From Myxococcus stipitatus (GTDB lineage Bacteria; Myxococcota; Myxococcia; Myxococcales; Myxococcaceae): a stretch of DNA of 64,000 nt. The notes under the pieces are model-generated. The model had not been told where the DNA came from. It saw nothing but the letters and a program-made list of their open reading frames with translations, and searched no databases. The stretch covers positions 6,136,001-6,200,000 of the forward strand of contig NZ_CP147913.1 in the NCBI RefSeq assembly GCF_037414475.1, written 5' to 3'. Below, piece by piece: positions 5,664 to 53,565 of the stretch; position 1 is the first letter of the stretch, and each line of letters begins with the position of its first letter. A program made the position numbers and the translations under genes.

Positions 5664-6284
5664 TCAGCGCACCGAAGACTTCTTCACCGCCGTCTTTCGA
5701 GCAGGGCGGCTCTTCGCGGTGGCGGCCTTCTTCGCGAGCGTGGGCTTTTTCGTGGCGGCGGCCTTCTTCGCGAGCGTGGGCTTTTTCGCGGCGGCAGCCT
5801 TCTTCGGTGCGGCGCTCTTCTTCGCGGAGGTCGCCTTGGGTGCCGCAGCGGCCTTCTTCGCGGGAGCCGAGGTGGCCTCTCGCGCGGAGGTGGAGGGCGA
5901 TGACGCACCCGTCAGCGCGGCATTCCAGCGTTCGATGTACTCGGCGCGGGACTCCGCGGTGGGAAGTCCCTCCATGTGCAGCGCGACAGTGCTCCCTCGC
6001 GCGGCGGCGAGGACACGAAGCTGCGCGGTCCTCGGATGTGGCCACTCCGCGCGGCTCAAGCGGATGCGCAGCAAGGACGGTGGCCGCACTCGGACGACGA
6101 GGACGTGGGTCCCATCCGCGAGCGTGGTCTCCTCGCCCTCCTTCAACGCTGTCCGCGCCTGGGACAGCCAGCGTCCCAATCCGTGGGCCTCGGCCCAGTT
6201 GCGCCAGGCATCCTGCGCGGTGAGGTCCATCGTGCGTCGTGCTCCAGCCTGGTAGCTGCCATCCGCCGTGAGTCCCGTGGGCAT
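5664..6284 (-). CDS. Unrecognised domain with histone H1-like Lys/Ala tail
   Basis: 206 residues from the ATG at 6284, preferred because AGGGAG lies 7 bases upstream; another ATG at 6293 is too close to that site. The first ~120 residues form an unrecognised compact domain (W/R-rich: WRNWAEAHGLGRWL, LLRIRLSRAEWPHP). The last ~75 residues are almost only Lys, Ala, Pro, Ser and Thr (repeats such as KKPTLAKKAAAT). This composition matches bacterial histone H1-like tails and the C-terminus of myxobacterial CarD, which bind DNA without sequence specificity. DNA or RNA association is inferred. A 36-bp unit is duplicated in the tail. Confidence 0.7.
   Translation of the reverse strand: MPTGLTADGSYQAGARRTMDLTAQDAWRNWAEAHGLGRWLSQARTALKEGEETTLADGTHVLVVRVRPPSLLRIRLSRAEWPHPRTAQLRVLAAARGSTVALHMEGLPTAESRAEYIERWNAALTGASSPSTSAREATSAPAKKAAAAPKATSAKKSAAPKKAAAAKKPTLAKKAAATKKPTLAKKAATAKSRPARKTAVKKSSVR
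5725..5796 (-). repeat. Two tandem 36-bp repeats coding KKPTLAKKAA units
   Basis: Bases 5725-5760 and 5761-5796 are near-identical copies. Each encodes 12 residues of the Lys/Ala tail (KKPTLAKKAAAT and KKPTLAKKAATA). In-frame duplication of this kind changes tail length without breaking the gene. Confidence 0.8.
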
Positions 6285-6382
6285 GTGTGTCATCTCCCTG
6301 GACGCACGATGAAGAGTGTCCAGCACGTGGGCAACTCCGAAGTCGAAGCCCGTCCCTCGCGGGGCTGGTGTAGACAGGGGCC

Positions 6383-13741: not shown

Positions 13742-16700
13742 TCACTCCACGCCGGAGGCGAGCCTGCCCTTCCACCACGCGGCCAGGGAGGGATTGCGCG
13801 CCAGCGCGGCTTCCGCGTCCGCGCGGGCCTGACTTCGCCACGTCTGTTGCTGCTCGGCCGACGCGTGGGTCTGGGCCAGCGCCCCTCTCAACCCGGCGCG
13901 CAGAAGCCGCGCACGTGCCCACTGGGGCCGCGCGGCCAGGATGCGCTCCACGGACTCCACGCCGCGCATCAGCACCGGCGCGGCGTCCTCTCCCCGGCCC
14001 TGCCTCCAGCGCCCCCACGCGAGTTGGAGTTCTCCGGCGGCCAGCACGTACTCGTGCTTCCGGGGGGCCAGCTCCACCGCTTGCGCGAGCGCCTCCGCGG
14101 CCTTCTGGAAGTCCTCGTCCGTGGCGGTTCCCTTCAGCGCGCGATGACGGGCGCGCACGTCGAGCACGCCACCTTGATAGCGCCAGGCATACCCGAGGCG
14201 AGGGTTGAGCGCCCGGGCGCGCGCGAGGGCCTCTTCCGCCTGGGCGAGGTCCGGGCCCACGTCGCGCTTCTTGTCCAGCGCGTGGGTGGCCCACAGCACG
14301 TGCACTCGCGCCAGGTTGGTCCACATGTCCGCGTCACCAGGCAGGAGGTCCAGCGCGCGGCGGTAGTCCTCCTTCGCCGCGCGGAGGCTCGCGGTGGGGT
14401 CCTCGCCTCGCGCCAGGATGATGCCCGCGCGCACCGCCTCCACCTCGCCCAGGTTGTTGTAGGCGAATGACTGTTGTGGCGCGATGACGCGAGCGTCCTC
14501 GAAGGCCCGCCGGGCTTCGGCCAGCAGGGGCTCCACGTCCTTGCCCTCCTCCCAGTGCTGCTCGGCCTGCCACAGGAGGGTGGCGCCCAGGCCGTTGGGG
14601 AGCTGGGGCAGCCGGGGGTTGATGTCCCGGCCCTGTTTGTAGAGCGCCAGCGCGCGCACCACGTCCGGCTCCGGGTCCTGGCCATGCTCCTGCTTCCAGC
14701 GCGCGAGCTGCTCGGCCACGTCCGCGCCCTGGTAGCAGCCGATGACGTTGCGCGGGTTGAGCGAGAGCGCCCGCTCGATGGCCTCCATGGCGCGGCGCAA
14801 ATCCCCCTGCGTGTCCGTCGCCTGGGGCAGTCCCGCCCGGGCCCGGTAGGAGTTGCCGAGGTTGATCCACGCGTCCGCCTGGTTCTCCCGCACGCGGATG
14901 GCCGCCAGGTACGTGTCGATGGCCTTGTCCTGGTGGGCGCGTGGGTCCAGGCCGTGCTCGTTCTCGTAGTCGGCCCAGATTTGATGGGTGAGCCCCAGCG
15001 TCGCGTAGAAGGCGTAGTCGCGCTCCTCGGGGCTCAGCTGCTCCAGCGCCTCGACGGCCTTGCCCAATTGCTCCCGTGGGTCCTGCGAGAGCCGCTGTTG
15101 GTGTCGGGCCCAGAGCCTGTGCGCGATGGCCAGCTCCAGCGTCACGCGGTCGCTGGGCGGGGCGAGCTTCATCGCGGCCTGGGCCGCGTCGATGGCCTTG
15201 CCCAAGAGCTCCTCCACGTCGCTCGCGTTCTGGTTGGCGTGCTGCTCGGCCAGGCGGCGGTGCAGCCGTGAGCGCACGACGAGGGAGGGGTGGTGGTCCG
15301 GCGCGGCCTTCAGCGCGTGGTCCAGGGCCTCCAGTCCCTTCTGATAGAGCGGCTGGATGTTGCCCGCGCCGTAGAGCTCCATGACCAGCGCGGCCAGCTC
15401 CAGGCGCCCGAGCGCGTAGTGCCCCGCGGGCTGGCTCTCCGCCGTGGCGATGGCCTGGGCATACGCGCGCCGTCCCGCCTCCAAATCCGCCTGGGAACCC
15501 GCCGTGTCGCCCTGATGCCAGCGCCCCGTCGCGCGCGCCAGGTACACGTCGCCTCGCAGGTGCGGCGCCTCGTAGAACCAGGGCTGCGCATCACCCATCG
15601 CGTCCAGGTGCGCGAGCGCCTCCTCGTGGCGGCCTTCATGGAAGGCGAAGAGGGCCTTCACATACAGCGGCGGCGCGGGGACGTCGGGGCCCTCGGCCTG
15701 GCGCAGATAGGCCAGCGCCGGGTCCCGGTAGCGCTGCTCCAGCTCCCGGCGGCGCGCCTCCCGGTTCTCCGGGCTGCGGCGCTCGACGTCCAGCAGCAGC
15801 TTCTCCCGGTACTGGTCTCCCAGCACCACCGCCAGCGCCCAGGCCGCGCGAGGCTCCCGGTAGCCATTCTCCCACGCGGCCTCCAGCTTCCGCCGCGCGC
15901 CCTCCACATCGCCCAGCGCCCAGAGCGCGCGGCCCAGGGCGTAGTTGCCAGGGCCCGCCGCGCGCCCGCCCGACTCACGCACCTCCGCCTCGAGCGCCTC
16001 CATGCTCGCGCGCAGCGCCTTGCGGTCCTCGCGCGTGTCATGGAGCCGGGAGAGGAACGAGTAGCGCGCGGCCGCTTCGATGCGCTCCACCCGCTCGGTG
16101 AAGCTGCGGGTGAGCCGCTCGCGCTCGGCCACCTCGCTTCGCGCGAGCACGGCCTGCCCCAGCGCCAGCGCCACCACCGTCAGCGCCGCCAGGCCCAGGC
16201 TCAACACCACGCGGTGCTTGCGCGCCTTCTTGCGCAGCCGGTAGCCCAGGCCGCGCCGGGCCTGCACGGGCTCTCCCCCGAGGAAGTGCTCCAGGTCATC
16301 CGCCAGCGCCCGCGCCGAGTCGTAGCGGGCCGAGCGCTCCTTCTCCAGGCACTTGAGGACGATGGCCTCCAGGTCCTCGGGGATGTCCCGGTCCAGCGTG
16401 CGCGGCGGGGGTGGCTCCTCCGTCTGGAGCTTCGTGATGATGTCGTGTTCGTTGTCCCCGCTGAACGGCGTGCGCCCGGTGAGCAGCAGGTACAGCGTGG
16501 CGCCCAGGCCGTAGACATCCACGCGCCGGTCCAGCCGGGCCGTGTCGCCCCGGGCCTGCTCGGGAGCCATGTAGTGCGGCGTGCCCATCACCACGCCGTG
16601 CATGCCCGCTTCCTCGCGCCAGTCGCGGGCGAGTCCGAAGTCCATGACGAAGGGGACGAAGTCGCCGTCCTCCGTGCGCTCCACCAGGATGTTGCCGGGT

Positions 16701-17416
16701 TTGATATCGCGGTGGACCAGGCCCGCGCGGTGCGCGGCGTGGACACCCTCGGCCGCCTGTCGCAACAGGAGCACCTTCTGCTCGGGCGTCAGCGTCGGCG
16801 CGAGCTGTCCCAGCGACTGGCCCGCGACGTAGCGCATGGCGATGTAGCCGCGCCCCTGCACCTCGCCGACCTCGTACACCTCGCACACCCGCTCGTGGCG
16901 CACGCGGGCCTGGGCGCGGGCCTCGGACAGGAAGCGCCGGGCCAGCTCCGGGTCTCCGCCGCGCACGAACTTGAGCGCGACGTTGCGCCGCAAGAGCGGG
17001 TCATACGCCAGGAACACCTGCCCCATGCCGCCCTGGCCCAGGAAGCGCACCGGCTGATAGCGGTCCCAGTCCGGTACGGGAAAGCCCGGCTCCGCGGCCG
17101 CGTCCGCCGAGGCTGGCGCCTGCGGGGACACCACGGGGGTCTCCGGGTCCAGCGTCGCGGCCTCCAGCGGGCCGGGGCCCGTGCCCGCCGTGTCACCCAG
17201 CTCCCGGGAGAGCTCCTCGCGCAGGGCGCCGAGCGTGTACTCGCCCAGGCGCCCCCTCTCGCTCAACAGCTCCAGGGGACTGCGGCCCTGGTCGAGTGCC
17301 TCCTCGCGCAGCGCGGACGCCTCCTCGGCGGAGACGAGCCCTTCGTTCAGCGCGAGGAGCAACTCCTCCTCATACCTCTCCTGCGTCTTCCCCGCGGTGT
17401 CCACGGCCCCCAGCAT
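13742..17416 (-). CDS. Membrane Ser/Thr protein kinase with large TPR-like region
   Basis: 1224 residues from the ATG at 17416; a longer frame would run into the preceding gene. An acidic helical N-terminus (1-75) precedes the Hanks-type kinase domain (about 120-385). That domain has P-loop GQGGMGQVF, lysine in VALKFV (149), catalytic HRDIKPGNIL (235-), DFG (259-261) and activation-segment end GTPHYMAPEQ. All catalytic residues are present. A juxtamembrane basic stretch and one membrane helix (about 403-425) follow, then ~790 residues of helical tetratricopeptide-like repeats (for example WINLGNSYRARAG). The kinase would be cytoplasmic and the repeat region on the other side of the membrane, probably binding a protein ligand. 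This layout is common in myxobacteria. Confidence 0.9.
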   Translation of the reverse strand: MLGAVDTAGKTQERYEEELLLALNEGLVSAEEASALREEALDQGRSPLELLSERGRLGEYTLGALREELSRELGDTAGTGPGPLEAATLDPETPVVSPQAPASADAAAEPGFPVPDWDRYQPVRFLGQGGMGQVFLAYDPLLRRNVALKFVRGGDPELARRFLSEARAQARVRHERVCEVYEVGEVQGRGYIAMRYVAGQSLGQLAPTLTPEQKVLLLRQAAEGVHAAHRAGLVHRDIKPGNILVERTEDGDFVPFVMDFGLARDWREEAGMHGVVMGTPHYMAPEQARGDTARLDRRVDVYGLGATLYLLLTGRTPFSGDNEHDIITKLQTEEPPPPRTLDRDIPEDLEAIVLKCLEKERSARYDSARALADDLEHFLGGEPVQARRGLGYRLRKKARKHRVVLSLGLAALTVVALALGQAVLARSEVAERERLTRSFTERVERIEAAARYSFLSRLHDTREDRKALRASMEALEAEVRESGGRAAGPGNYALGRALWALGDVEGARRKLEAAWENGYREPRAAWALAVVLGDQYREKLLLDVERRSPENREARRRELEQRYRDPALAYLRQAEGPDVPAPPLYVKALFAFHEGRHEEALAHLDAMGDAQPWFYEAPHLRGDVYLARATGRWHQGDTAGSQADLEAGRRAYAQAIATAESQPAGHYALGRLELAALVMELYGAGNIQPLYQKGLEALDHALKAAPDHHPSLVVRSRLHRRLAEQHANQNASDVEELLGKAIDAAQAAMKLAPPSDRVTLELAIAHRLWARHQQRLSQDPREQLGKAVEALEQLSPEERDYAFYATLGLTHQIWADYENEHGLDPRAHQDKAIDTYLAAIRVRENQADAWINLGNSYRARAGLPQATDTQGDLRRAMEAIERALSLNPRNVIGCYQGADVAEQLARWKQEHGQDPEPDVVRALALYKQGRDINPRLPQLPNGLGATLLWQAEQHWEEGKDVEPLLAEARRAFEDARVIAPQQSFAYNNLGEVEAVRAGIILARGEDPTASLRAAKEDYRRALDLLPGDADMWTNLARVHVLWATHALDKKRDVGPDLAQAEEALARARALNPRLGYAWRYQGGVLDVRARHRALKGTATDEDFQKAAEALAQAVELAPRKHEYVLAAGELQLAWGRWRQGRGEDAAPVLMRGVESVERILAARPQWARARLLRAGLRGALAQTHASAEQQQTWRSQARADAEAALARNPSLAAWWKGRLASGVE

Positions 17417-17522: not shown

Positions 17523-20500
17523 CTAGCGGCGCTTGTTGCGGCGGCGCAGACCGAGCAAGCCCAGCAGGGCCAGCCACGACGAGGCCGGAGCCGCGCTGCA
17601 GCCACCACCCGCGAACGAGCGCGTGTTCAGCACCGTCCACCGGTACTCGGCGGGAGTCGCATCCACGTTGCTCGCCTCATCCACGGCGCGGACCCGCAGG
17701 GTGTGGTCGCCGTATGGGACGTCGTAGGTGGTGCGGCAGGCGACGTACGGGCCGCCGTTCAGGCTGCACTCGTACCGTACGCCTTCCTCGGTGGACCCGT
17801 AGTCGAACTGCGACTGCGTGGAGTCGGTGCGGTCCGGCGGGCTGCGGACGAACGAGGTGTCCGGCGCCACCGTGTCGATGCGGAACGTGTCCACGTTGGA
17901 GGCGGGGCCGGTGTTGCCCGCCCGGTCCGTGGCCGTGGCCGTCACCGAGTGCGAACCCTCCGCCATCGGCGTGGAAGGCGTGCAGTTCCAGCGGCCGGCG
18001 TCATCCGTGATGGCGGTGCACACGACGGTGCCTCCCTCGCGCACCGTCACCGTGGTGCCCGGCTCCGACGTGCCGCTGATGACCGGCGTGGAGTCGTTGA
18101 GGAGCGAGCCCGGCGCGGGGCCGGCGATGACCGGGGCGGCCGGCGCCGTGGTGTCCACCGTGAAGGTGGAGGGCGTGGACGGGGTGCTGACGCCGCCAGC
18201 GGGGTTGGTGGCGGTGGCCGTCACCGTGTGCGGCCCCTCTTGCAGCGGGGTGGACGGCGTGCAGGTCCAGTTCCCGTTGGCGTCGGCCGTGGCGGTGCAC
18301 AGCACCGTGGAGCCCTCGCGCACCGTCACCGTGGCGCCCGGCTCGGAGGTGCCGCTGATGGGCGGCGTCTGGGTCGAGACCACGGTTCCCGTGGAGGGAC
18401 CGGTGATGACGGGCGGGGTGGGCGGCGCCAACTGGATGACGATGTTCGTCGAGGGCGACGGCTCCGTGGTGCCCAGCACCGTGGACGTGACGACCACCGC
18501 GTGCGGCCCCTCGGGGATGTTGCCCAGGTTGCAGGTCCAGTTCCCGTTGGCGTCGGTGACGGCGGTGCAGGCGGGCGTGGGGTTCCCATCGACGTAGACG
18601 TGGATGGTGGTGCCCGGAGTCGCGGTGCCGCCGATGACCGGGTCCGTCACGCCGCCAGGACCCGGGTCCGTCACGGCGGGGATGCGCTGGCAGATGGAGA
18701 GCGAGTCCACGCGGAACGTGGCCGTCGTCGCCGAGTTGTTGTTGGTGGCGCAGTCGGTGTCGATGAAGGCCACGCGCACGTCACCGGTGGCCGCGTCGAA
18801 GTCGCGACGCTCCGAGAAGCCCTGCTCCATGGCGGCCTCGCGGGTGGTGGAGCCCGTCGCCGCGGGGACGCGTCCCAGCGAGAACCGCTGCGCGCCCGCG
18901 CTGGTGGTGTGGTTGACGCCGAAGATGCCCGGGTACCACTGGGGGCTGCCGTCGTAGTCCGCCGCGCCGGAGACGTAGCTGATGCGGTAGCGGCCCGGAA
19001 CCGTGAGCGCCGCCTGGATGGCCGCGTCCGGCAGGGCGGGCGCGCCGATGTCCGACACCTGCGTGCACTCGTTGCGAGCGTGGCGGGTGATGACCGTGTG
19101 CACCGCCTTGTTCTGGCAGCCGAAGGCGGCCTCCACCGCGCAGGTGGCGCCGCAGCCGTCGCCCGCCGTGGTGTTGCCGTCGTCGCACGCCTCGGAGGCC
19201 GCCTTGATGCCGTCGCCACACCGCACCGCGCAGGACGAGGGGATGTCCACGCAGCTGTAGCCCGCCTCGATGGCGCACGTGCTGCCGCAGCCATCGCCCG
19301 CGGTGGTGTTGGCGTCGTCGCACTGCTCGTCCCCATCCAGCATCCCGTTGCCGCAGATGTTGGCCGTGACGCAGACGTCCGAGTGGGGGTTGCACGTGCC
19401 GCTCTCGCAGACGCCGGACGCGTTGCAGGCCTGGCCGTTCTCCCACAGGCAGCGCGGCGAGCAGGTGTCGCCGCTCTGGAGGTTGCCGTCGTCGCAGACC
19501 TCGGTGCCGGCGACCACGCCGTCACCACAGGTGGTGGTGCAGAAGCTCGGAGCGCCGCTGCACGAATAACCGGGCTCCTGGGCGCAGCTGGCGCTGCAAC
19601 CATCACCCGCCGCGGTGTTGCCGTCGTCGCACGTCTCTCCCGCGTTCAGCACGCCGTTGCCGCAGCTCTGGGTGCACACGGACGTGCTGTTCGCCGGACG
19701 GGTGCAGACGTAACCGGACTCCACCCCACAGGTGGCGTTGCAGCCGTCGCCCGACACGGTGTTGCCGTCGTCACACGCCTCGGCGCCAGCGACCCTGCCG
19801 TCGCCGCAGGTGGTGGTGCAGACGGACGGCGCGACTGAGCAGTTGTAACCGGACTCCACGGCGCAGGCGGAGGAGCAGCCGTCGCCCGACGTGGTGTTTC
19901 CGTCGTCACAGGTCTCGTTCGGGTCCTGGACGTTGTTGCCGCACGAACGGACACACACGGAGGGCGCGTTCGTGGGGGTGCTGCAGGCGTAGCCGGCTTC
20001 TACGCGGCACTCGGTGGCGCAGCCGTCCTGGGAGTTGAGGTTGCCGTCGTCGCACTCTTCGCCCGGGTTCACCACGCCGTTGCCGCACGTGTTCACACAG
20101 GCCTGGCCCGGGATGGGGCACGCGGCGCCCAGCTCCAGGGTGCATGCCACGGAGCAGCCATCGCCCATGTTGGTGTTGCCGTCGTCGCACAGCTCGCCGG
20201 GGTTGAGCACCCCGTTGCCACACAGGGCCTTGCAGTTGGACGGCACGTCGTTGCACTCGTAGCCGCTCTCGACGCGGCAGGAGGCGGAGCAGCCATCGCT
20301 GCCCAGCGTGTTGCCGTCGTCGCACTGCTCACCGGCGTTGAGCTGGCCGTTGCCGCAGGTGGCGACGCAGGCCTGGCCCGGGGTCGGGCACGCATGGCCG
20401 GACTCCACGCGGCAGCTCGCGTTGCAGCCGTCGCCCGCCGTCGTGTTGCCGTCGTCGCACTGCTCGCCGGCGTTGAGCTGGCCGTTGCCACACGTCCGCG

Positions 20501-21683
20501 CGCAGGAGCTGGGCGCGCCCGCGCAGCCATAGCCGGGCTCGATGCCGCAGGTGTTGTTGCAGCCATCGTTGTTGGCCGTGTTGCCGTCGTCGCACTCCTC
20601 GCGGGGAGACACGGTGCCGTCGCCACAGCGGTCGTCGTAGGCGTCCACGAAGATGTAGCGGAACGCATTGGGCTCCGACTGCTCGTTCTCATTGCACAGC
20701 TCGATGCGGTTGAGGCCCGTGCGCCAGGGCGCGTTCGCTCCGAACTCCCGGATGATGTTCTTCTGCCAGGGCTGGCCCGCCGGCTGGCTCACCGTGACCG
20801 GCGTGAAGTTCGTCCCGTTCACAGTCGCGTGGTCGAAGTCGTTGTCGTTGAACGTCGCGAGGCGCAGGCGGAACTGGGCGACGTTGGTGGTCGAGGGGAT
20901 GATGAACCGCTGGTAGATACACGTCGGGGCACCCAGGGGCGCGGCCATGAAGCGCGCCGTCTGGCTCTCCTGCGGCCAGTCCTGGGCATCGCGCACACCC
21001 GGGACGGCGCCTGCGTTGTTGCTGGTGTAGAACCAGTGCGGGTCCAGACCGGACTCCAGCCGGCGGTTGTTCTGGTCCACGCCCGTGTTGAAGACCACCA
21101 CACCCGCCCTCACGCAGCGGCTGGGCGTCCCCGCGCAGGCGAAGCCGGGCTCGACTTCACACTGACGGTTGCAGCCATCGCCCTCGGCGCGGTTGCCGTC
21201 GTCGCAGATCTCCTGGTCGAAGTTGGGCCACTGGCGATTGTTGAACACGCCGTTGCCGCACAGCGACAGGTCGCAGGTGGCCGAGCATCCGTTGGTGTCC
21301 GCCGTGGTGTTGCCGTCGTCGCAGGCCTCGCCGGTGTTGATGACGTTGTTGCCGCACAGCGTGGCCAGGGAGCAGGGCCGGCCAGGCACATGGCACAGGT
21401 AGCCGGCTTCGATGGCGCCCGCGGAGGAGCAGCCATCGCCGCTCACCGTGTTGCCGTCGTCGCACTGCTCACCGGGCTGCAGCCGGCCGTCGCCCACGAG
21501 CGCGGAGGACTGGCTGGAGACCAGGGCCTCCTCGGGGACGGGCGCGGGAGGCGTGGGCTCGCAGCCGGTGAGGGCCGCGAGGAGCGCGAGCGCGAGGGCC
21601 GCGCGGAGCCCGGCGCGCGCGGGCGGCCGAGGCTCGGGACAGAAGTGTTCAGGGACTCGTGTTGTCATGGATGTCTGCCTCAC
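17523..21683 (-). CDS. Cys-rich CDDGN-repeat surface protein with MYXO-CTERM anchor
   Basis: 1386 residues. The N-terminus has a hydrophobic stretch with a lipobox-like end, LTGC (Cys about 41). Then come 14 copies of the myxobacterial Cys-rich repeat (pattern CGNGxxNxGExCDDGNTxxGDGC), interrupted after copy 3 by a ~150-residue non-repeat domain and followed after copy 14 by another beta domain. Three Ig-like repeats (IxGTSEPGxTVTVREG) and a final beta domain precede the C-terminal tag GCSAAPASSWLALLGLLGLRRR, which is the MYXO-CTERM sorting signal (Cys, hydrophobic helix, Arg cluster). It should be displayed on the outer membrane. Its ATG overlaps the stop of the OmpA-like gene (ATGA), so the two are translationally coupled. 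Having both an N-terminal lipobox and a C-terminal sorting tag is unusual. Confidence 0.92.
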   Translation of the reverse strand: MRQTSMTTRVPEHFCPEPRPPARAGLRAALALALLAALTGCEPTPPAPVPEEALVSSQSSALVGDGRLQPGEQCDDGNTVSGDGCSSAGAIEAGYLCHVPGRPCSLATLCGNNVINTGEACDDGNTTADTNGCSATCDLSLCGNGVFNNRQWPNFDQEICDDGNRAEGDGCNRQCEVEPGFACAGTPSRCVRAGVVVFNTGVDQNNRRLESGLDPHWFYTSNNAGAVPGVRDAQDWPQESQTARFMAAPLGAPTCIYQRFIIPSTTNVAQFRLRLATFNDNDFDHATVNGTNFTPVTVSQPAGQPWQKNIIREFGANAPWRTGLNRIELCNENEQSEPNAFRYIFVDAYDDRCGDGTVSPREECDDGNTANNDGCNNTCGIEPGYGCAGAPSSCARTCGNGQLNAGEQCDDGNTTAGDGCNASCRVESGHACPTPGQACVATCGNGQLNAGEQCDDGNTLGSDGCSASCRVESGYECNDVPSNCKALCGNGVLNPGELCDDGNTNMGDGCSVACTLELGAACPIPGQACVNTCGNGVVNPGEECDDGNLNSQDGCATECRVEAGYACSTPTNAPSVCVRSCGNNVQDPNETCDDGNTTSGDGCSSACAVESGYNCSVAPSVCTTTCGDGRVAGAEACDDGNTVSGDGCNATCGVESGYVCTRPANSTSVCTQSCGNGVLNAGETCDDGNTAAGDGCSASCAQEPGYSCSGAPSFCTTTCGDGVVAGTEVCDDGNLQSGDTCSPRCLWENGQACNASGVCESGTCNPHSDVCVTANICGNGMLDGDEQCDDANTTAGDGCGSTCAIEAGYSCVDIPSSCAVRCGDGIKAASEACDDGNTTAGDGCGATCAVEAAFGCQNKAVHTVITRHARNECTQVSDIGAPALPDAAIQAALTVPGRYRISYVSGAADYDGSPQWYPGIFGVNHTTSAGAQRFSLGRVPAATGSTTREAAMEQGFSERRDFDAATGDVRVAFIDTDCATNNNSATTATFRVDSLSICQRIPAVTDPGPGGVTDPVIGGTATPGTTIHVYVDGNPTPACTAVTDANGNWTCNLGNIPEGPHAVVVTSTVLGTTEPSPSTNIVIQLAPPTPPVITGPSTGTVVSTQTPPISGTSEPGATVTVREGSTVLCTATADANGNWTCTPSTPLQEGPHTVTATATNPAGGVSTPSTPSTFTVDTTAPAAPVIAGPAPGSLLNDSTPVISGTSEPGTTVTVREGGTVVCTAITDDAGRWNCTPSTPMAEGSHSVTATATDRAGNTGPASNVDTFRIDTVAPDTSFVRSPPDRTDSTQSQFDYGSTEEGVRYECSLNGGPYVACRTTYDVPYGDHTLRVRAVDEASNVDATPAEYRWTVLNTRSFAGGGCSAAPASSWLALLGLLGLRRRNKRR

Positions 21684-23527
21684 TTCTCGAGGGTGTCGGC
21701 CCCGGGGGTTCCCTGCTTCGTCTCGACGCCCTCGGCGTCACCGACGATGCGGAACTCCACGCGGCGGTTCTTGGCGCGGCCGGGCTTGGTGGTGTTCTCC
21801 GCGATGGGCTTGGCGGGGCCATAGCCCTGCGCATCCAACCGCTCGCGGCTCACGGACTTGCCCACCAGGTACTTCACCACCGCCTCGGCGCGGCGACGGG
21901 AGAGGTCCAGGTTGTAGTCCGCCTTGCCCGTGTTGTCGGTGTGTCCCTCGACGCGCAGCTTCTCGATTTCAGGGTGCGACGCGAGGATGGCCGCCACGCT
22001 GTCGAGCAGCTTGTGGCTGCGCGTGCTGATGACGTCCTGGTTGTTCTCGAAGAAGACGGACTCGAGGATGCGAATCTGTCCTTCGCCAATCTGCGCCAGC
22101 TGCTTCTGCTTGCAGCCGTGGTTCTTCTCCGTTCCCGGCTCATCCGGGCAGTTGTCCAGCCGGTCCACGAGCCCGTCGCCGTCGCGGTCCTTGTCCGGGC
22201 AGCCGCGGTTCTCCTTCGGGCCCGCCTCGTTCATGCAGGCATCGCGCGCGTCCGCCACGCCGTCCTGGTCGTTGTCCGGGTCCGGGCAGCCGTTGTCGTC
22301 CTCGAAGCCGTCCATGTCCTCGGCCTGCTTCGGGCACGCGTCCTTGGAGTCCGCGATGCCGTCGCCGTCGGAGTCCGGGTCATCCGGGCAGCCGTCGGAG
22401 TCCTCGAAGCCGTTGATGTTCTCTGCTTGCGCGGGGCAGCGGTCCGCCAGGTTGAGCAGGCCGTCCTGGTCGTCGTCCGTGTCCGCGCAGCCGTTGAGCT
22501 GGGCGAGGCCCGGCGTCGTCGGGCAGCGGTCCGCGACGTTCTTCACGCCGTCGCCATCCGCGTCCAGGTCGGGACAGCGGGCCGCGTCGTGGGGCTGGCC
22601 CGCGACACATGAAGCGACCTTCGTGCCATCGGAGCCGAAGTTGACGCCGGCCAGCACGCGGAACTCGGGCGTGCCGGGCGTCTGACCGAAGCCGGGGCCA
22701 CCCATGATGTAGAACTCGGTGCCCTCGGTCCGGGCGCTGCGAAGACCCAGCAGCACCTCGAGCGACTCGGGCGCGTCCGCGAACGGCAGCGTGCCGCGCA
22801 CCACCAACTCCTCGCGCAGGCCGAACAGCTCGGCGGAGACATTGACGCCGCCGTTCATCTCCACGCCCATCTCGTCGCGCAGCGGCGTCGCGCCGGGGGT
22901 AAGGGCGTACGTCTTGGTCCTCACGAGCGCGCCCACGTCCGCGCCCACGCGCCACGTGTCGTTCAGCCGCTTGCCAAGCCCCAAGCGCGGGGTGAAGACG
23001 AAGCCATCATCCCGGGTGAGCACCTCTTCGCTGCCCAGGGGCAGGGCCACGCCCAGGTGCAGGCCCATGTCGAGCGGGCCTCCGCGCGACTCGGACAGGA
23101 TGCCCGCGCGCGCCTGGAGCCAGGGCGTGCCCAGCGCGAAGGTCGACGGCGTCTCGAAGCCCAGCGTCTTCGTGTCCGGGCCCCACTGCGTGACGATGGG
23201 AACCTGCGCGCCGAGCTCCAACCAGTCCGTCAGGGCGTAGGCGCCGCTGAAGTGCACCGTCACGCGGTCGGACACCACGGTGCCCAGTCTCGCGTCGTTG
23301 CGCATCAGCACCAGCGGCCTGCGCTGGTAGTGGGCCGTCATGCCCAGGCGGAAGGTGCCATCCGGCAGCAGGTCGCCCGTGGACAGCACGAGGCTGTCCT
23401 TCGCGCCGGGGTTCAACTGCAACCGCTCCAGCTCCACGCTGGGAATCCGCTGGGCCTGTGCCTCAGCGGAGAATGCCCAAAGGACGGCCAGTCCTCCGAG
23501 CAAGGATGAGTGACTTCTCGATTTCAA
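21680..23527 (-). CDS. OmpA-family outer-membrane protein with thrombospondin type 3 repeats
   Basis: 615 residues from a TTG codon at 23527. GGAGG lies 5-6 bases before this TTG, and the frame then gives a clean signal peptide (MKSRSHSSLLGGLAVLWAF, cleavage near AEAQA); an upstream GTG would put acidic residues in front of it. Domains: an N-terminal beta-barrel-like region (about 25-300), Asp-rich calcium-binding thrombospondin type 3 repeats (about 310-450; DxDxDGVxDxxDxCP), and an OmpA domain (about 465-590; FFENNQDVIS, VEGHTDNTGKADYNLDLSRRRAEAV) that binds peptidoglycan. Together with the coupled MYXO-CTERM gene it resembles the TraB half of the Myxococcus TraA/TraB cell-recognition pair, an inference from architecture only. 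Confidence 0.88.
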   Translation of the reverse strand: MKSRSHSSLLGGLAVLWAFSAEAQAQRIPSVELERLQLNPGAKDSLVLSTGDLLPDGTFRLGMTAHYQRRPLVLMRNDARLGTVVSDRVTVHFSGAYALTDWLELGAQVPIVTQWGPDTKTLGFETPSTFALGTPWLQARAGILSESRGGPLDMGLHLGVALPLGSEEVLTRDDGFVFTPRLGLGKRLNDTWRVGADVGALVRTKTYALTPGATPLRDEMGVEMNGGVNVSAELFGLREELVVRGTLPFADAPESLEVLLGLRSARTEGTEFYIMGGPGFGQTPGTPEFRVLAGVNFGSDGTKVASCVAGQPHDAARCPDLDADGDGVKNVADRCPTTPGLAQLNGCADTDDDQDGLLNLADRCPAQAENINGFEDSDGCPDDPDSDGDGIADSKDACPKQAEDMDGFEDDNGCPDPDNDQDGVADARDACMNEAGPKENRGCPDKDRDGDGLVDRLDNCPDEPGTEKNHGCKQKQLAQIGEGQIRILESVFFENNQDVISTRSHKLLDSVAAILASHPEIEKLRVEGHTDNTGKADYNLDLSRRRAEAVVKYLVGKSVSRERLDAQGYGPAKPIAENTTKPGRAKNRRVEFRIVGDAEGVETKQGTPGADTLEK

Positions 23528-23655
23528 GAGTTCCTCCACGTCCACGCGGCGTCATGTGCGCGCGCGACCTTCGACCACCCGTTGGGTGCGCCTGCACGGT
23601 TGCACGGCGCGGGCCAGGATGTCGTGAGGAAGACGGAGGAATCGATGAGTGGGGC

Positions 23656-46595: not shown

Positions 46596-48005
46596 TTACT
46601 CCGAGCGGCCAAGCTCGACGCTCTCCAGGATGCCGAGCGCGTCCGGCACCAGGACGGCGGCGGAGAAGTAGGCGCTGACCAGGTAGTTGATGATGGCCTT
46701 CTCGTTGATGCCCATGAACCGGACGGAGAGGCTGGGCTCGATTTCGTCCGGGATGCCCGCCTGGTGCAGACCGACGACACCCTGGTTCTTCTCACCGGCG
46801 CGCATCAGCAGGATGGAGCTGGTGCGCGAGTCGGAGACGGGAATCTTGTTGCACGGGAAGATGGGGATGCCGCGCCAGGCGGGCACCATGTTGCCGTTCA
46901 TCTCCACGCTCGTCGGGTAGATGCCCCGGCGGTTGCACTCCTGGCCGAACGCGGCGATGGCGCGCGGGTGGGCCAGGAAGAAGGACGGGTCCTTCCACAC
47001 GGTGGAGAGCAGCTCGTCCATGTCGTCCGGCGTCGGCGGGCCCGAGCGCGTGTGGATGCGCTGCTTCAGGTCCGCGTTGTGCAGCAGGCCGAAGTCGCGG
47101 TTGTTGATGAGCTCGTGCTCCTTGCGCTCCTTGAGCGCCTCCACCGTCAGACGCAGCTGCTGCTCCGTCTGGTTCATGGGCTCGTTGAACAGGTCCGCGA
47201 CGCGGCTGTGGACCTGGAGCACCGTCTGCACCACGCTCAGCTCGTACTCGCGGGGGGACGTCTCGTAGTCCACGTACGTGCCCGGCAGCACCGGCTCACC
47301 CGAGTGACCGGACGCCAGCTCGATGGCGGCCTGGCCGGAGGTGTCCTGCTTCTTCTTCGAGAGCGCCTTGAACTGCTCGATGTGCTTCTTGAGGGTGGGC
47401 GACTGGTCCACCACCGCCTCGAACGCGCTCTGCTGGAGCACCAGCACCGTGCAGGGCGTGACGGCCTTGGCCGTGAACTGCCAGTAGTCCTGCGACTCCA
47501 GCAGCGCCTGGTAGCTGTAGTGGTCGCCGTCGGCGAGCACGCCCAGCACCGTCTGGTCGCCGTACTTGCCCGCCCCAATCTTGTTCACCTTGCCGTGGGC
47601 GATGAGGACGATGCTGTCGGCCTCCTTGCCCTTCTCGGTGATGACGTCGCCCGCCTTGTACTCCTTCTGCTCGAAGCGGTTGGCCAGGGCCTGGAGCGCG
47701 TCCACGTCGTCGAACCCGCGCAGCAGCGGCAGCTCACACAGCTCCTGTGGGATGACGTGAACCTTGGCGCCCGTGGTGGAGAACGTCACCCGGCCATCGC
47801 CCACCGCGTAGCTCAGGCGGCGGTTGACGCGGTACACGCCACCGGAGACCTGCACCCACGGCAGCAGCTTGATGAGCCACCGCGAGGAGATACCCTGCAT
47901 CTGCGGCACGGACTTGGTCGTCGTCGCCAGCTGGCGCGCCGCCGCCGTACCCAGGCTCAACTGCGAGTGCTCCGCTGCGTTGTCCGGCTTCATCGAGTTC
48001 GCCAT
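46596..48005 (-). CDS. Family 2B encapsulin shell protein (first copy)
   Basis: 469 residues, AAGG 7 bases before the ATG. Same domain order as the downstream copy: N-arm ([29 protein letters not shown]), inserted cyclic-nucleotide-binding-like domain (about 97-215; [35 protein letters not shown]), then the HK97 shell domains ([74 protein letters not shown]). It lies 58 bp after the geosmin synthase, the cargo type known for family 2B. Tandem, diverged shell genes with a terpene cyclase are the hallmark of a two-component nanocompartment. Confidence 0.94.
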
Positions 48006-48063
48006 GAGAACACCTTGTCTTTCAGTGGAAAGGGGTTGGAGTCAGGAATGAGGTGAGAGGAAT

Positions 48064-50688
<2,625 letters not shown>

Positions 50689-51162
50689 ATGAGCAACAGG
50701 AGTGAAGCATCTGGTCGCTTCGAGGTGCTGGGCGAGAACGGGTTCGTGGTCTCGGATGATGCGGCCCGTATCGACCTGGATGTCGTGCATGGATACCTGA
50801 CGCGCTCGTATTGGAGCGAGGGTATCTCCCGGGCCACGGTGGAGCGGGCGTGCCGGCACTCATTGGTCTTGGGCGTGTATTCGGCGGACGGGGCTCAGGT
50901 GGGCTTCGCGCGTGTCATCACGGACCGGACGTCGTTTGCCTATCTCTGCGACGTCTTCGTCCTGGAGTCACATCGGGGGAAGGGATTGAGCAAGTGGCTG
51001 ATGGAGGTCCTCCTGGCTCATCCGGACCTCCAGGGGCTGCGACGCTTCTCGCTCGTCACCAAGGATGCCCATGGGTTGTATGCGCAGTATGGGTTCACGC
51101 CGCTGAAGAATCCGGGGGGATACATGGAGCGGCACGACCCGGACGTCTACCGCCGGAGGTGA
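50689..51162 (+). CDS. GNAT family N-acetyltransferase
   Basis: 157 residues from the ATG at 50689, with AGGAGG 10 bases upstream. It has the standard order of the small GNAT enzymes: LTRSYWSEGISRATVERACRHS, LVLGVYSADGAQVGFARVITD, LCDVFVLESHRGKGLSKWLMEVLLAHP (acetyl-CoA loop RGKGLS) and TKDAHGLYAQYGFTPL. Substrate unknown. It is divergent from the geosmin operon, and nothing ties the two functionally. Confidence 0.88.
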   Translation: MSNRSEASGRFEVLGENGFVVSDDAARIDLDVVHGYLTRSYWSEGISRATVERACRHSLVLGVYSADGAQVGFARVITDRTSFAYLCDVFVLESHRGKGLSKWLMEVLLAHPDLQGLRRFSLVTKDAHGLYAQYGFTPLKNPGGYMERHDPDVYRRR

Positions 51163-51230
51163 GGTCGGGCGCACTCGCGTGACTCATGTGGGGAGCAGCC
51201 GGGCTATCCTCGGTGGGACGAGGAGCGGCC

Positions 51231-52682
51231 ATGGCGAATGGACATCGGCGGGGCGGTGGCCCCGGCCGCAGCGAGGAGACGCGAATCGCCCCCGAGGATG
51301 AGGAGGCCACGGGGGACATTCCGGACTTCCATCCCGAGGAGACGCGAGTGGCGCCGCCGGACCCGGCCGAGGCCGGCGTGGATGACTGGCGCGAGGGCTC
51401 CGACTCGGACGCACGGGGACAGGAGGACATCGTCACGGATGCGCGAGGCGCTGGCCGGTCTCGTCCTGTCGGCATGGGGGCTGTCCGGCGAGGCGCCGAG
51501 GTGGCCGTTCCGGAGCGTGGCGCGGGAGGGGGCGCTCGGGGAAGGAGCGTGGCTGCGTCACCGTGGGATGAGGACGAGCAGACCGCCGCCATGGTGATTC
51601 CAGGAGGGGCGGGGGCCCGGCGCTCCGGCCCGGGTGGGAATGCTGAGGACGCGCCGCCGCCCTTCGCCACGGAGGTGCGTGGCGGCGCCAACGCCAAGGC
51701 AGGACGCGGCGCCGATGATGCGCTCCCACCTTTCGCCACGGAGGTGCGTGGCGGCGCCAACGCCAAGGCAGGACGCGGCGCCGATGATGCGCTCCCACCT
51801 TTCGCCACGGAGGTGCGTGGCGGCGCCAACGCCAAGGCAGGACGCGGCGCCGATGATGCGCTCCCGCCCTTCGCCACGGAGGTGCGTGGCGGCGCCAACG
51901 CCAAGGCAGGACGCGGCGCCGATGATGCACTGCCCCCTTTCGCCACCGAGGTCCGGGGGGGCGGAGCTCCCGCGACGGAGGTTCGCGGAGCCTCGGGCAA
52001 CGCGCCCACGGGGACCCGCGCTGGCGCCGAGAAGGCGGGGAACTGGCTGACACGCGGCGGAGAGAAGCCCCCTTCAGGCGGGCTCACGGCGGGGGTCGTC
52101 AGGCTCAGCCCGCTGGAGCCCGCGAACGGAAAAATCGCCGCCGCCGAGGAGAGTGGCCCCGCGCTGCGGACGATGTTCGCCAGTCACTCCGCCCTCCTCG
52201 CGGAGCAGCTTCGCGACGCGCTCGCGAAGAAGATGTACGGCCGAGGTCCGCACCGGGTGCTGCGCATCGACGAGCCCGAGGGCCCCAGCACCGCCGGCGG
52301 CAAGCTGGCCCGTCAAGCCATCTCCCTGGTGCCTCGCAAGGGCGAGGGCCCTTCCCTCATGTGCGGTTGGGTCGACGTCGCCAGACGCGAAGCCCAGCTC
52401 CGCGCCTACGACGGCGTCGCGCGCCGCTACGAGGCCCACCACGGTGAACCGCTGGAGCTCCAGCCCGAGGAGTACGAGCGCTTCCTGACCGACGTCGAGG
52501 ACGCGCTCATCAAGGCCGTCATCAAGGTCCGGCTCCTCATCCCCGAGGAACAGCCCACCCCAGGAGCGGCGACACCCGCCGCGAAGGCCCGCGCCAAAGG
52601 CGGTCTCCCCTGGCCGCTGGTGCTGCTGCTTTTGGGCGCAGCCTTCGCCTTGGGCCTCTTCGTGGGCCGCACTCCCGGCTGA
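51231..52682 (+). CDS. Repeat-containing tail-anchored protein
   Basis: 483 residues from the ATG at 51231, with GAGGAG 6 bases upstream. The N-terminal half is disordered, acidic then Gly/Ala/Arg-rich, and holds four near-perfect 23-residue repeats (core PPFATEVRGGANAKAGRG) and a degenerate fifth. A folded domain follows (about 300-445; MFASHSALLAEQLRDALAKKMYGRGPHRVLRID, MCGWVDVARREAQLRAYDGVARRYEAHHGEPLELQPEEYERFL). One membrane helix (PLVLLLLGAAFALGLFVG) sits 5 residues from the C-terminus, as in tail-anchored proteins. Family not recognised. The repeat looks like Thr-centred phosphorylation or protein-docking motifs; this is inference. Confidence 0.75.
   Translation: MANGHRRGGGPGRSEETRIAPEDEEATGDIPDFHPEETRVAPPDPAEAGVDDWREGSDSDARGQEDIVTDARGAGRSRPVGMGAVRRGAEVAVPERGAGGGARGRSVAASPWDEDEQTAAMVIPGGAGARRSGPGGNAEDAPPPFATEVRGGANAKAGRGADDALPPFATEVRGGANAKAGRGADDALPPFATEVRGGANAKAGRGADDALPPFATEVRGGANAKAGRGADDALPPFATEVRGGGAPATEVRGASGNAPTGTRAGAEKAGNWLTRGGEKPPSGGLTAGVVRLSPLEPANGKIAAAEESGPALRTMFASHSALLAEQLRDALAKKMYGRGPHRVLRIDEPEGPSTAGGKLARQAISLVPRKGEGPSLMCGWVDVARREAQLRAYDGVARRYEAHHGEPLELQPEEYERFLTDVEDALIKAVIKVRLLIPEEQPTPGAATPAAKARAKGGLPWPLVLLLLGAAFALGLFVGRTPG
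51663..51938 (+). repeat. Four tandem 69-bp coding repeats
   Basis: Units start at 51663, 51732, 51801 and 51870, and a partial fifth starts at 51939. The copies are almost identical at the base level, including third codon positions, which points to recent amplification or ongoing copy-number change. Each unit encodes 23 residues, so the frame is kept. Confidence 0.95.
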
Positions 52683-52781: not shown

Positions 52782-53432
52782 TCACGGCGTGGGCTGCGCG
52801 ACGGCCGGCTGAGTCCCCGCGGCGGCCTGCTCGGCGGCGGCCTTCTCCGCGGCGGCCTTCTCCTCGGCCAGGCGCGCGGCCTCGGCCTCGGCGCGCTTCT
52901 TCGTCTCGGCCTCCACCACCGTCTTCATGTTGGCCAGGCCGGACTCGAAGTCCTTGCCCAGCAGCTTGTCCATGTCCATGAGCAGCGAGAACGCCTTGCT
53001 GACGAAGTTGTTGTTGCCGCTCATCGCCCACGTCACCTCGGTGCCACCCTCCACGGGCTTGAAGGTGAAGGTCGACGTGTTGGTCACCGTGAACGGCTTG
53101 ATGAACTCCAGCTTGATGCGGACGAACTCGGTCGGCCGGCTCTCCTCGATGGTCATCCGGCCTTCGCCCACCTGGTCATTGCCTGTCCAGTAGTAGACAG
53201 CTCCGGTGCCGGACTCCGCGCCGGAGAACGTCATCTTCACGTTGGGGTCCAACCGGGCCCAGGGCGACCACGCGCTCCACAGATGAAAGTCATTCACCTG
53301 CGCGAAGACGAGGTCCGCGGACGCGGGCAGCGTCGCGCTGCGCTGGATGGTGAACTCCGAGGGGCGCGAGGCGATGACGCCCACGAGGATGAGGATGACG
53401 GCGGCCAGGCCGACGAGAATCTTCTTGAGCAT
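52782..53432 (-). CDS. Membrane-anchored SRPBCC-fold protein
   Basis: 216 residues from the ATG at 53432, with AAGGA 7 bases upstream. One N-terminal membrane helix (about 4-21), then a polyketide-cyclase/SRPBCC domain (about 28-172): FTIQRSATLPASADLVFAQVNDFHLWSAWSPWARLDPNVKMTFSG, GRMTIEESRPTEFVRIKLEFIKPF, TEVTWAMSGNNNF. A Lys/Glu/Ala helical tail rich in AAAEKAA ends the protein. The family binds hydrophobic ligands; no ligand is suggested here. Confidence 0.85.
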   Translation of the reverse strand: MLKKILVGLAAVILILVGVIASRPSEFTIQRSATLPASADLVFAQVNDFHLWSAWSPWARLDPNVKMTFSGAESGTGAVYYWTGNDQVGEGRMTIEESRPTEFVRIKLEFIKPFTVTNTSTFTFKPVEGGTEVTWAMSGNNNFVSKAFSLLMDMDKLLGKDFESGLANMKTVVEAETKKRAEAEAARLAEEKAAAEKAAAEQAAAGTQPAVAQPTP

Positions 53433-53565
53433 GGGGTGTGTCCTTGTTCGGGCGGCTGCCAGCAGGGCGCCAGCCCGTGGCGCGTCATAGAGGCTGCGGG
53501 CCATCCGACACAAGGCACCCCCTGTCGGAGATGGAACCTCCTGGGTCCATCGGTGGTGAAACGAA

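Follow-up and report, generated by a model that had tools for sequence, protein, structure and literature searches.

The locus and its neighbours

The window, meaning the whole 64,000-nucleotide stretch analysed, is part of the 10.31-Mb single-contig genome of Myxococcus stipitatus (contig NZ_CP147913.1, positions 6,136,001–6,200,000), and coordinates below are window positions unless stated otherwise. The gene under study occupies 51231–52682 of the forward strand and codes for a 483-residue protein of an unnamed family; searches of this protein against Pfam and NCBIfam returned no match. We prefer the ATG at 51231 as the start, because a Shine-Dalgarno-like GAGGAG (51220–51225) lies 5 nt upstream of it and many relatives have an MANG-type start. 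The longer open reading frame beginning at 51186 appears less likely.

Directly upstream lies a gene for a GNAT acetyltransferase (50572–51162, forward strand) and downstream, on the opposite strand, one for a START-like protein (52782–53513). Neighbouring genes were compared across 20 loci, each 17 kb long, ten of the same genus and ten of other genera. A START-like gene was found on the opposite strand, 0.1–6.2 kb away, in all ten same-genus loci, and a putative catalase-like gene, read from sequence, was present in the same neighbour group in six of these ten; in the loci of other genera the neighbours differed. Apart from the gene's own group, the largest shared one (17 loci) overlapped the gene and was rejected as a shadow frame. 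These comparisons suggest that the gene works by itself or with partners that are not linked to it.

Several other features of the window were noted. The START-like protein ends in an A/E/K-rich tail coded by a 15-bp repeat of the AEKAAA type (52817–52868, reverse strand). A Family 2B encapsulin shell gene with a cyclic-nucleotide-binding domain adjoins a double terpene cyclase gene, whose NCBIfam name designates it as family 2 encapsulin cargo; the two (46596–50319, reverse strand) form a known nanocompartment pair. Repeat arrays detected by TRF were also present in genes for a 1386-residue protein with twelve DUF4215 stretches and Big domains (17523–21683, reverse strand; 135-bp arrays at 20040–20602), an OmpA-domain protein with thrombospondin type 3 repeats (21680–23545, reverse strand; 102-bp array at 22259–22494), and an AHSA1-like protein with a histone-H1-like K/A-rich tail (5664–6326, reverse strand; 18/36-bp arrays). 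A Pkinase domain (16301–17059, reverse strand; 6152301–6153059 of the contig) was found within a 1294-residue open frame.

Architecture of the predicted protein

The window protein was modelled by AlphaFold2 together with 22 relatives as alignment input. Residues 1–310 (51231–52160), an arm rich in A, G, R, P, E, and D (composition taken over residues 1–305), were modelled without secondary structure, with a mean pLDDT per 10 residues of 36–50, and are predicted to be disordered. The arm opens with a pair of EETR[IV]AP motifs, EETRIAP (51273–51292) and EETRVAP (51336–51355), and the back-translated motif had no other match anywhere in the genome; ETR-like motifs open the arms of many relatives. 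The arm is followed by a conserved globular domain with a GPSTAGG loop (residues 311–440; 52161–52550), delineated by alignment and models and better formed than the arm in the AlphaFold2 model, and by a predicted membrane helix at residues 461–480 (52611–52670).

Hydropathy agreed with the model: 19-residue windows above 1.6 started only at residues 457–464, so that the single predicted hydrophobic helix falls in roughly the last 30 residues, and the same threshold revealed no signal- or export-like hydrophobic segment at the N terminus (MANGHRRGGG). Thus, the window protein is probably a membrane protein with one C-terminal helix. Tail-anchored membrane proteins are inserted after translation by a single helix at their very C-terminal end, lack an N-terminal signal, and keep the N-terminal bulk of the chain in the cytoplasm. 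The window protein resembles this class in its one predicted terminal helix and in lacking an N-terminal hydrophobic segment, and may share its mode of insertion and topology. The sequence-only reading of this DNA had called the protein tail-anchored, and at the level of prediction we agree.

The repeat array

TRF reported one 69-bp array in the gene, at 51663–51963 (4.4 copies, 95% matches, no indels, score 539), and the array is in frame. In the AlphaFold2 model it had no secondary structure and a mean pLDDT below 50, a low confidence that is no proof of disorder. Its main part, 51663–51938, consists of four 69-bp units, all of which code for the same 23 residues. Unit 2 (51732–51800) is identical to unit 1 (FATEVRGGANAKAGRGADDALPP; 51663–51731), while unit 3 (51801–51869) and unit 4 (51870–51938) differ from unit 1 at two and three of the 69 bases, respectively, and from each other at four. 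Every one of these differences is silent, and all are confined to unit positions 60–69. The near-identity of the four units, which the sequence-only reading had noticed to extend to silent positions, is beyond chance.

The same reading had described a decayed fifth copy after the four units. The stretch concerned, 51939–51992, codes for FATEVRGGGAPATEVRGG, which is identical in two of the three nearest relatives (G070 and G072) and near-identical, as FPTEVRGGGVPATEVRGG, in the third (G061). This conservation rules out a decayed copy; judged from the compared proteins, FATEVRGGGAPATEVRGG is the fixed, conserved end of the array.

The number of unit starts within this four-species clade, compared with one genome per species, was five in the window genome, four in G070, three in G072, and two in G061. 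The unit measures 23 residues in the window species and 24 residues in the three relatives. Because the differences among the units are exclusively silent and the unit length differs from that of the relatives, the comparison indicates that the window array was expanded or homogenised after the split from these relatives, in line with the recent duplication proposed earlier. A comparison of copy number across species had also been suggested, a number fixed among distant relatives being taken to argue against a role in tuning binding; the number proved variable within the clade, and other clades carry other units.

Near-identical tandem units within one gene, varying in number between close relatives, are also a feature of the Periscope Proteins. 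These are described as bacterial surface proteins in which the number of individually folding, rod-forming repeats varies (PMC9704523). The variation in unit number among the four species agrees with that description. On the other hand, Periscope Proteins are surface rods, whereas the arm of the window protein is predicted to be disordered and hydropathy did not indicate an exported surface protein, there being no hydrophobic export-like segment at the N terminus.

The family and its conserved domain

When 96 genomes of the family were searched with the protein, 70 gave matches. From 65 of these, 70 loci (L001–L070, the window gene included) were taken, five genomes with weak or partial matches being left out; the genera represented were Myxococcus, Pyxidicoccus, Corallococcus, Citreicoccus, Archangium, and Hyalangium. 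L052, L064, L063, and L070 are second, diverged family copies with short arms in Archangium- or Hyalangium-type genomes.

In 21 aligned members, a domain of approximately 130 residues was followed by a hydrophobic C-terminal stretch, the latter recognised by eye. The loop residues G50, P51, S52, G55, and G56 as well as Q61 were invariant in this alignment. Variants of the loop were GPSSNGG in L065, GPSSAGG in L068, and GPSTGGG in L067, and the diverged L070, which stands outside the 21-member alignment, reads SSKAGG. In view of the latter, the loop is nearly but not fully invariant among the proteins compared. A wider scan with the seed P[EDL]GPSTAGG yielded 36 loci (L093–L128), reaching Polyangiaceae, Labilithrix, and Minicystis; since the 37-row domain alignment was gathered by the GPSTAGG pattern, the loop is invariant there by construction. 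One record (L097) is titled Comamonas sp. and was taken as a mislabelled genome of the window's genus; L128 is titled Deltaproteobacteria. Taken together, the alignments outline an unnamed family, found here in Myxococcota, which consists of a small GPSTAGG domain and a C-terminal helix.

The distant members L119, L122, L123, L127, and L128 have the domain and the helix with just 7–18 open codons before the match, whereas the open frames before the match in L120, L121, L124, and L125 are longer than in these short forms. As some distant members have hardly any sequence in front of the domain, the long arm was apparently added in Myxococcaceae-type genomes.

Comparisons with known families and folds gave the following results: (i) Pfam searches with the 37 domain rows returned five families with at most two rows each (best E 0.0058), nothing usable; (ii) a sequence search of the PDB with the window protein gave a best E of 0.94, and a further search gave two matches (best E 0.027), which we do not credit; (iii) Foldseek with the domain model (mean pLDDT 71.3) returned no hits at E 0.001 or better; and (iv) the best VIA-align match of the model, Crl in 6omf (Z 5.4, rmsd 4.0 Å over 99 residues), was below a meaningful level. 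The missing clear fold match is no demonstration of a new fold. A limited, title-level literature search on the protein family found nothing.

Arm length and clade-specific repeat units

Sixty-one of the 70 loci had a recognisable start and entered the counts of arm length and motifs (out: L035–L037, L047, and L065–L069). The part before the domain varied from 56 to 366 residues (median 181), while the C-terminal part remained at 173–208 residues.

Clades with arrays use different units of 9–24 residues, as shown by TRF on the relatives, and many loci have no array. The units are FATEVRGG... (23–24 residues; window clade), GGSAPATEVR (10 residues), GRGQEVIQTEARGT (14 residues), IATELRPGGRG... 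(22/11 residues), STEVRxxKAPV (13 residues), EETRMGPVEP... (12/16 residues), ETRVASMED... (21 residues), DATRPIPRKTGARPALQD (19–21 residues), EEGQGLPEIIRPGRGGA (18 residues; Corallococcus group), and a PPPPSPLRA-like unit (9–12 residues; Citreicoccus group). When placed on a tree of the 70 domain sequences (27 of 66 inner branches strongly supported), the ten unit groups, which were assigned by eye and cover 33 of the 70 rows with 37 rows ungrouped, required nine changes, the minimum possible, compared with an average of 20.8 for shuffled labels. Since the unit types differ by clade and fit the domain tree with so few changes, the repeats are, on this comparison, repeated local inventions within one arm and not a single old repeat. 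Among the TRF rows with a period of at least 24, 53 of 56 (rows overlap) had a period divisible by 3.

The possibility exists that the array is a by-product of slippage in high-GC, low-complexity DNA, tolerated when in frame and disordered, with no role for either the repeats or the length of the arm. The turnover of unit type between clades and the TRF arrays in other proteins of the window are consistent with this explanation, which we regard as possible but on balance unlikely: 49 of the 61 arms are longer than 100 residues, and ETR motifs recur at the arm start across many genera.

Several units contain RGG or GRG (FATEVRGG, GGRG, and GRGQEV), which would suit an RG/RGG-rich polyampholyte responsible for clustering or for binding RNA at the membrane. 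RGG is missing, however, from the Hyalangium-type, M. xanthus-group, and Citreicoccus-type units, and the window unit has as many acidic residues (E, D, D) as basic ones (R, K, R). We thus consider such a role very improbable.

The threonine motif of the arms

In the 61 arms, T[RE] occurred 369 times, whereas composition shuffles predict 142.7 occurrences; for a stricter motif, T[RE] followed by a hydrophobic residue and either R or [AG]P, the count was 183 against 4.4 expected. Tandem copies and common descent exaggerate both enrichments. The density of T[RE] was 4.28 per 100 residues inside arrays compared with 2.71 outside, which argues against the neutral origin considered above. T[RE] was present in eight of the ten unit types, an observation that is suggestive rather than strong, because at these densities a random 18-residue segment often holds T[RE]. 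It was absent from the repeated cores of Corallococcus (11 rows) and Citreicoccus-type (two rows) units, and Corallococcus has TREEG or TRDDG in single copies only. That the threonine core is not universal fits neutral slippage.

Conservation of the core was assessed with a phase-free test in 16 arrays with a T column, as the version that selects units by a core-containing pattern is circular. The core ranked 1 of 13 in L012, 2 of 20 in L059, and 3 of 22 in L010, and was not outstanding in the other 13 arrays (in L055 and L061 a different T column was picked); in L009 it was below the mean.

Hanks-type kinases could modify the T-[RE] threonines, so that FHA proteins would dock to them and the repeat number would set the valency. 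The motif counts above and the presence of T[RE] in most unit types point in this direction, as does the genome, which has 113 Pkinase matches (111 above the cut-off) and 49 FHA matches; for M. xanthus, 99 such kinases have been given (PMC2887360). A large complement of this kind is, however, equally true for any protein of the window genome, the nearest Pkinase and FHA matches lie 23 kb and 243 kb from the gene, and the enrichment counts ignore common descent and duplication.

For self-binding FHA tails, the published context of the threonine is a hydrophobic residue at each of −3, +2, and +3, with E at −2 and S at +1 (PMC6733907); other FHA domains may read different contexts. EETRIAP and EETRVAP agree with it at two positions, having E at −2 and a hydrophobic +2 residue. 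The threonine of the window repeat has P at −3, F at −2, E at +1, V at +2, and R at +3, and thus fits the published context at +2 only. The sequence-only reading had pictured this threonine as surrounded by basic residues; within five residues we find one R (+3) and one E (+1), and that description does not hold. The PknA-dependent sites of another phylum have an acidic N-terminal side, P at +2, L or V at +3, and a basic residue at +4 (PMC7164672). The Hyalangium-type DDATRPIP, whose threonine is preceded by D at −3 and followed by P and I at +2 and +3, resembles this pattern in part, minus the basic +4 residue, while the window unit is unlike it.

The tails of GarA, OdhI, and Bdellovibrio DgcB resemble the arm in being disordered and N-terminal, and they too have a conserved threonine flanked by acidic and hydrophobic residues (PMC6733907). 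These proteins carry the FHA domain in the same chain, whereas Pfam found none in the window protein, which differs further in having many candidate sites and a repeat threonine without a hydrophobic residue at +3. The limited, title-level literature search found no phosphorylation data on the window protein. With the repeated cores of two groups lacking such a threonine and the window repeat departing from the FHA-bound tails at −2 and +3, phosphothreonine docking is doubtful and survives as a minority reading.

A related idea is that several clades independently assembled unrelated tandem units around T-[RE]-hydrophobic, converging on a multivalent docking platform, perhaps switched by phosphorylation, for the kinase/FHA network. 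We consider this convergent amplification improbable.

A flexible tether as the proposed explanation

We favour, with a probability of roughly 0.55, the explanation that the arm is a fast-evolving flexible tether whose array arose by in-frame duplication and is tolerated or selected for length, the short threonine motifs being possible contacts. The protein would be held in the inner membrane by its one C-terminal helix, with the small folded domain just before the helix and the disordered arm before the domain, and the repeats would form part of the probably cytoplasmic tether. Short segments of the arm would be duplicated in frame through replication slippage or unequal recombination, so that each clade builds its own array and the copy number drifts. 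The arm would contribute length and flexibility, and hence reach, and the repeated T-[RE]-hydrophobic motifs may serve as weak contact sites; the exact copy number presumably matters little.

The tether, a role that we infer, is supported by the wide variation of arm length next to a C-terminal part of nearly constant size, by the unstructured model of the window arm, by clade-specific units that fit the domain tree with the minimum of changes, by the predominance of TRF periods divisible by 3, and by distant members that have the domain and helix but hardly any arm. Against a tether-only role, T[RE] is denser in arrays and its threonine core is the best or nearly the best kept part of the unit in L012, L059, and L010; a pure spacer needs neither. 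The behaviour of the repeats as such looks like ordinary fast repeat turnover.

Should the motif reading be true, the arm would give assays a starting point for finding the binding targets of the large myxobacterial kinase/FHA network. If the arm needs length only, the family would provide a natural series for the evolution of a disordered tether, in which one domain and helix are combined with about ten repeat types. In either case, the GPSTAGG domain, which was unmatched in the libraries searched, could be named.
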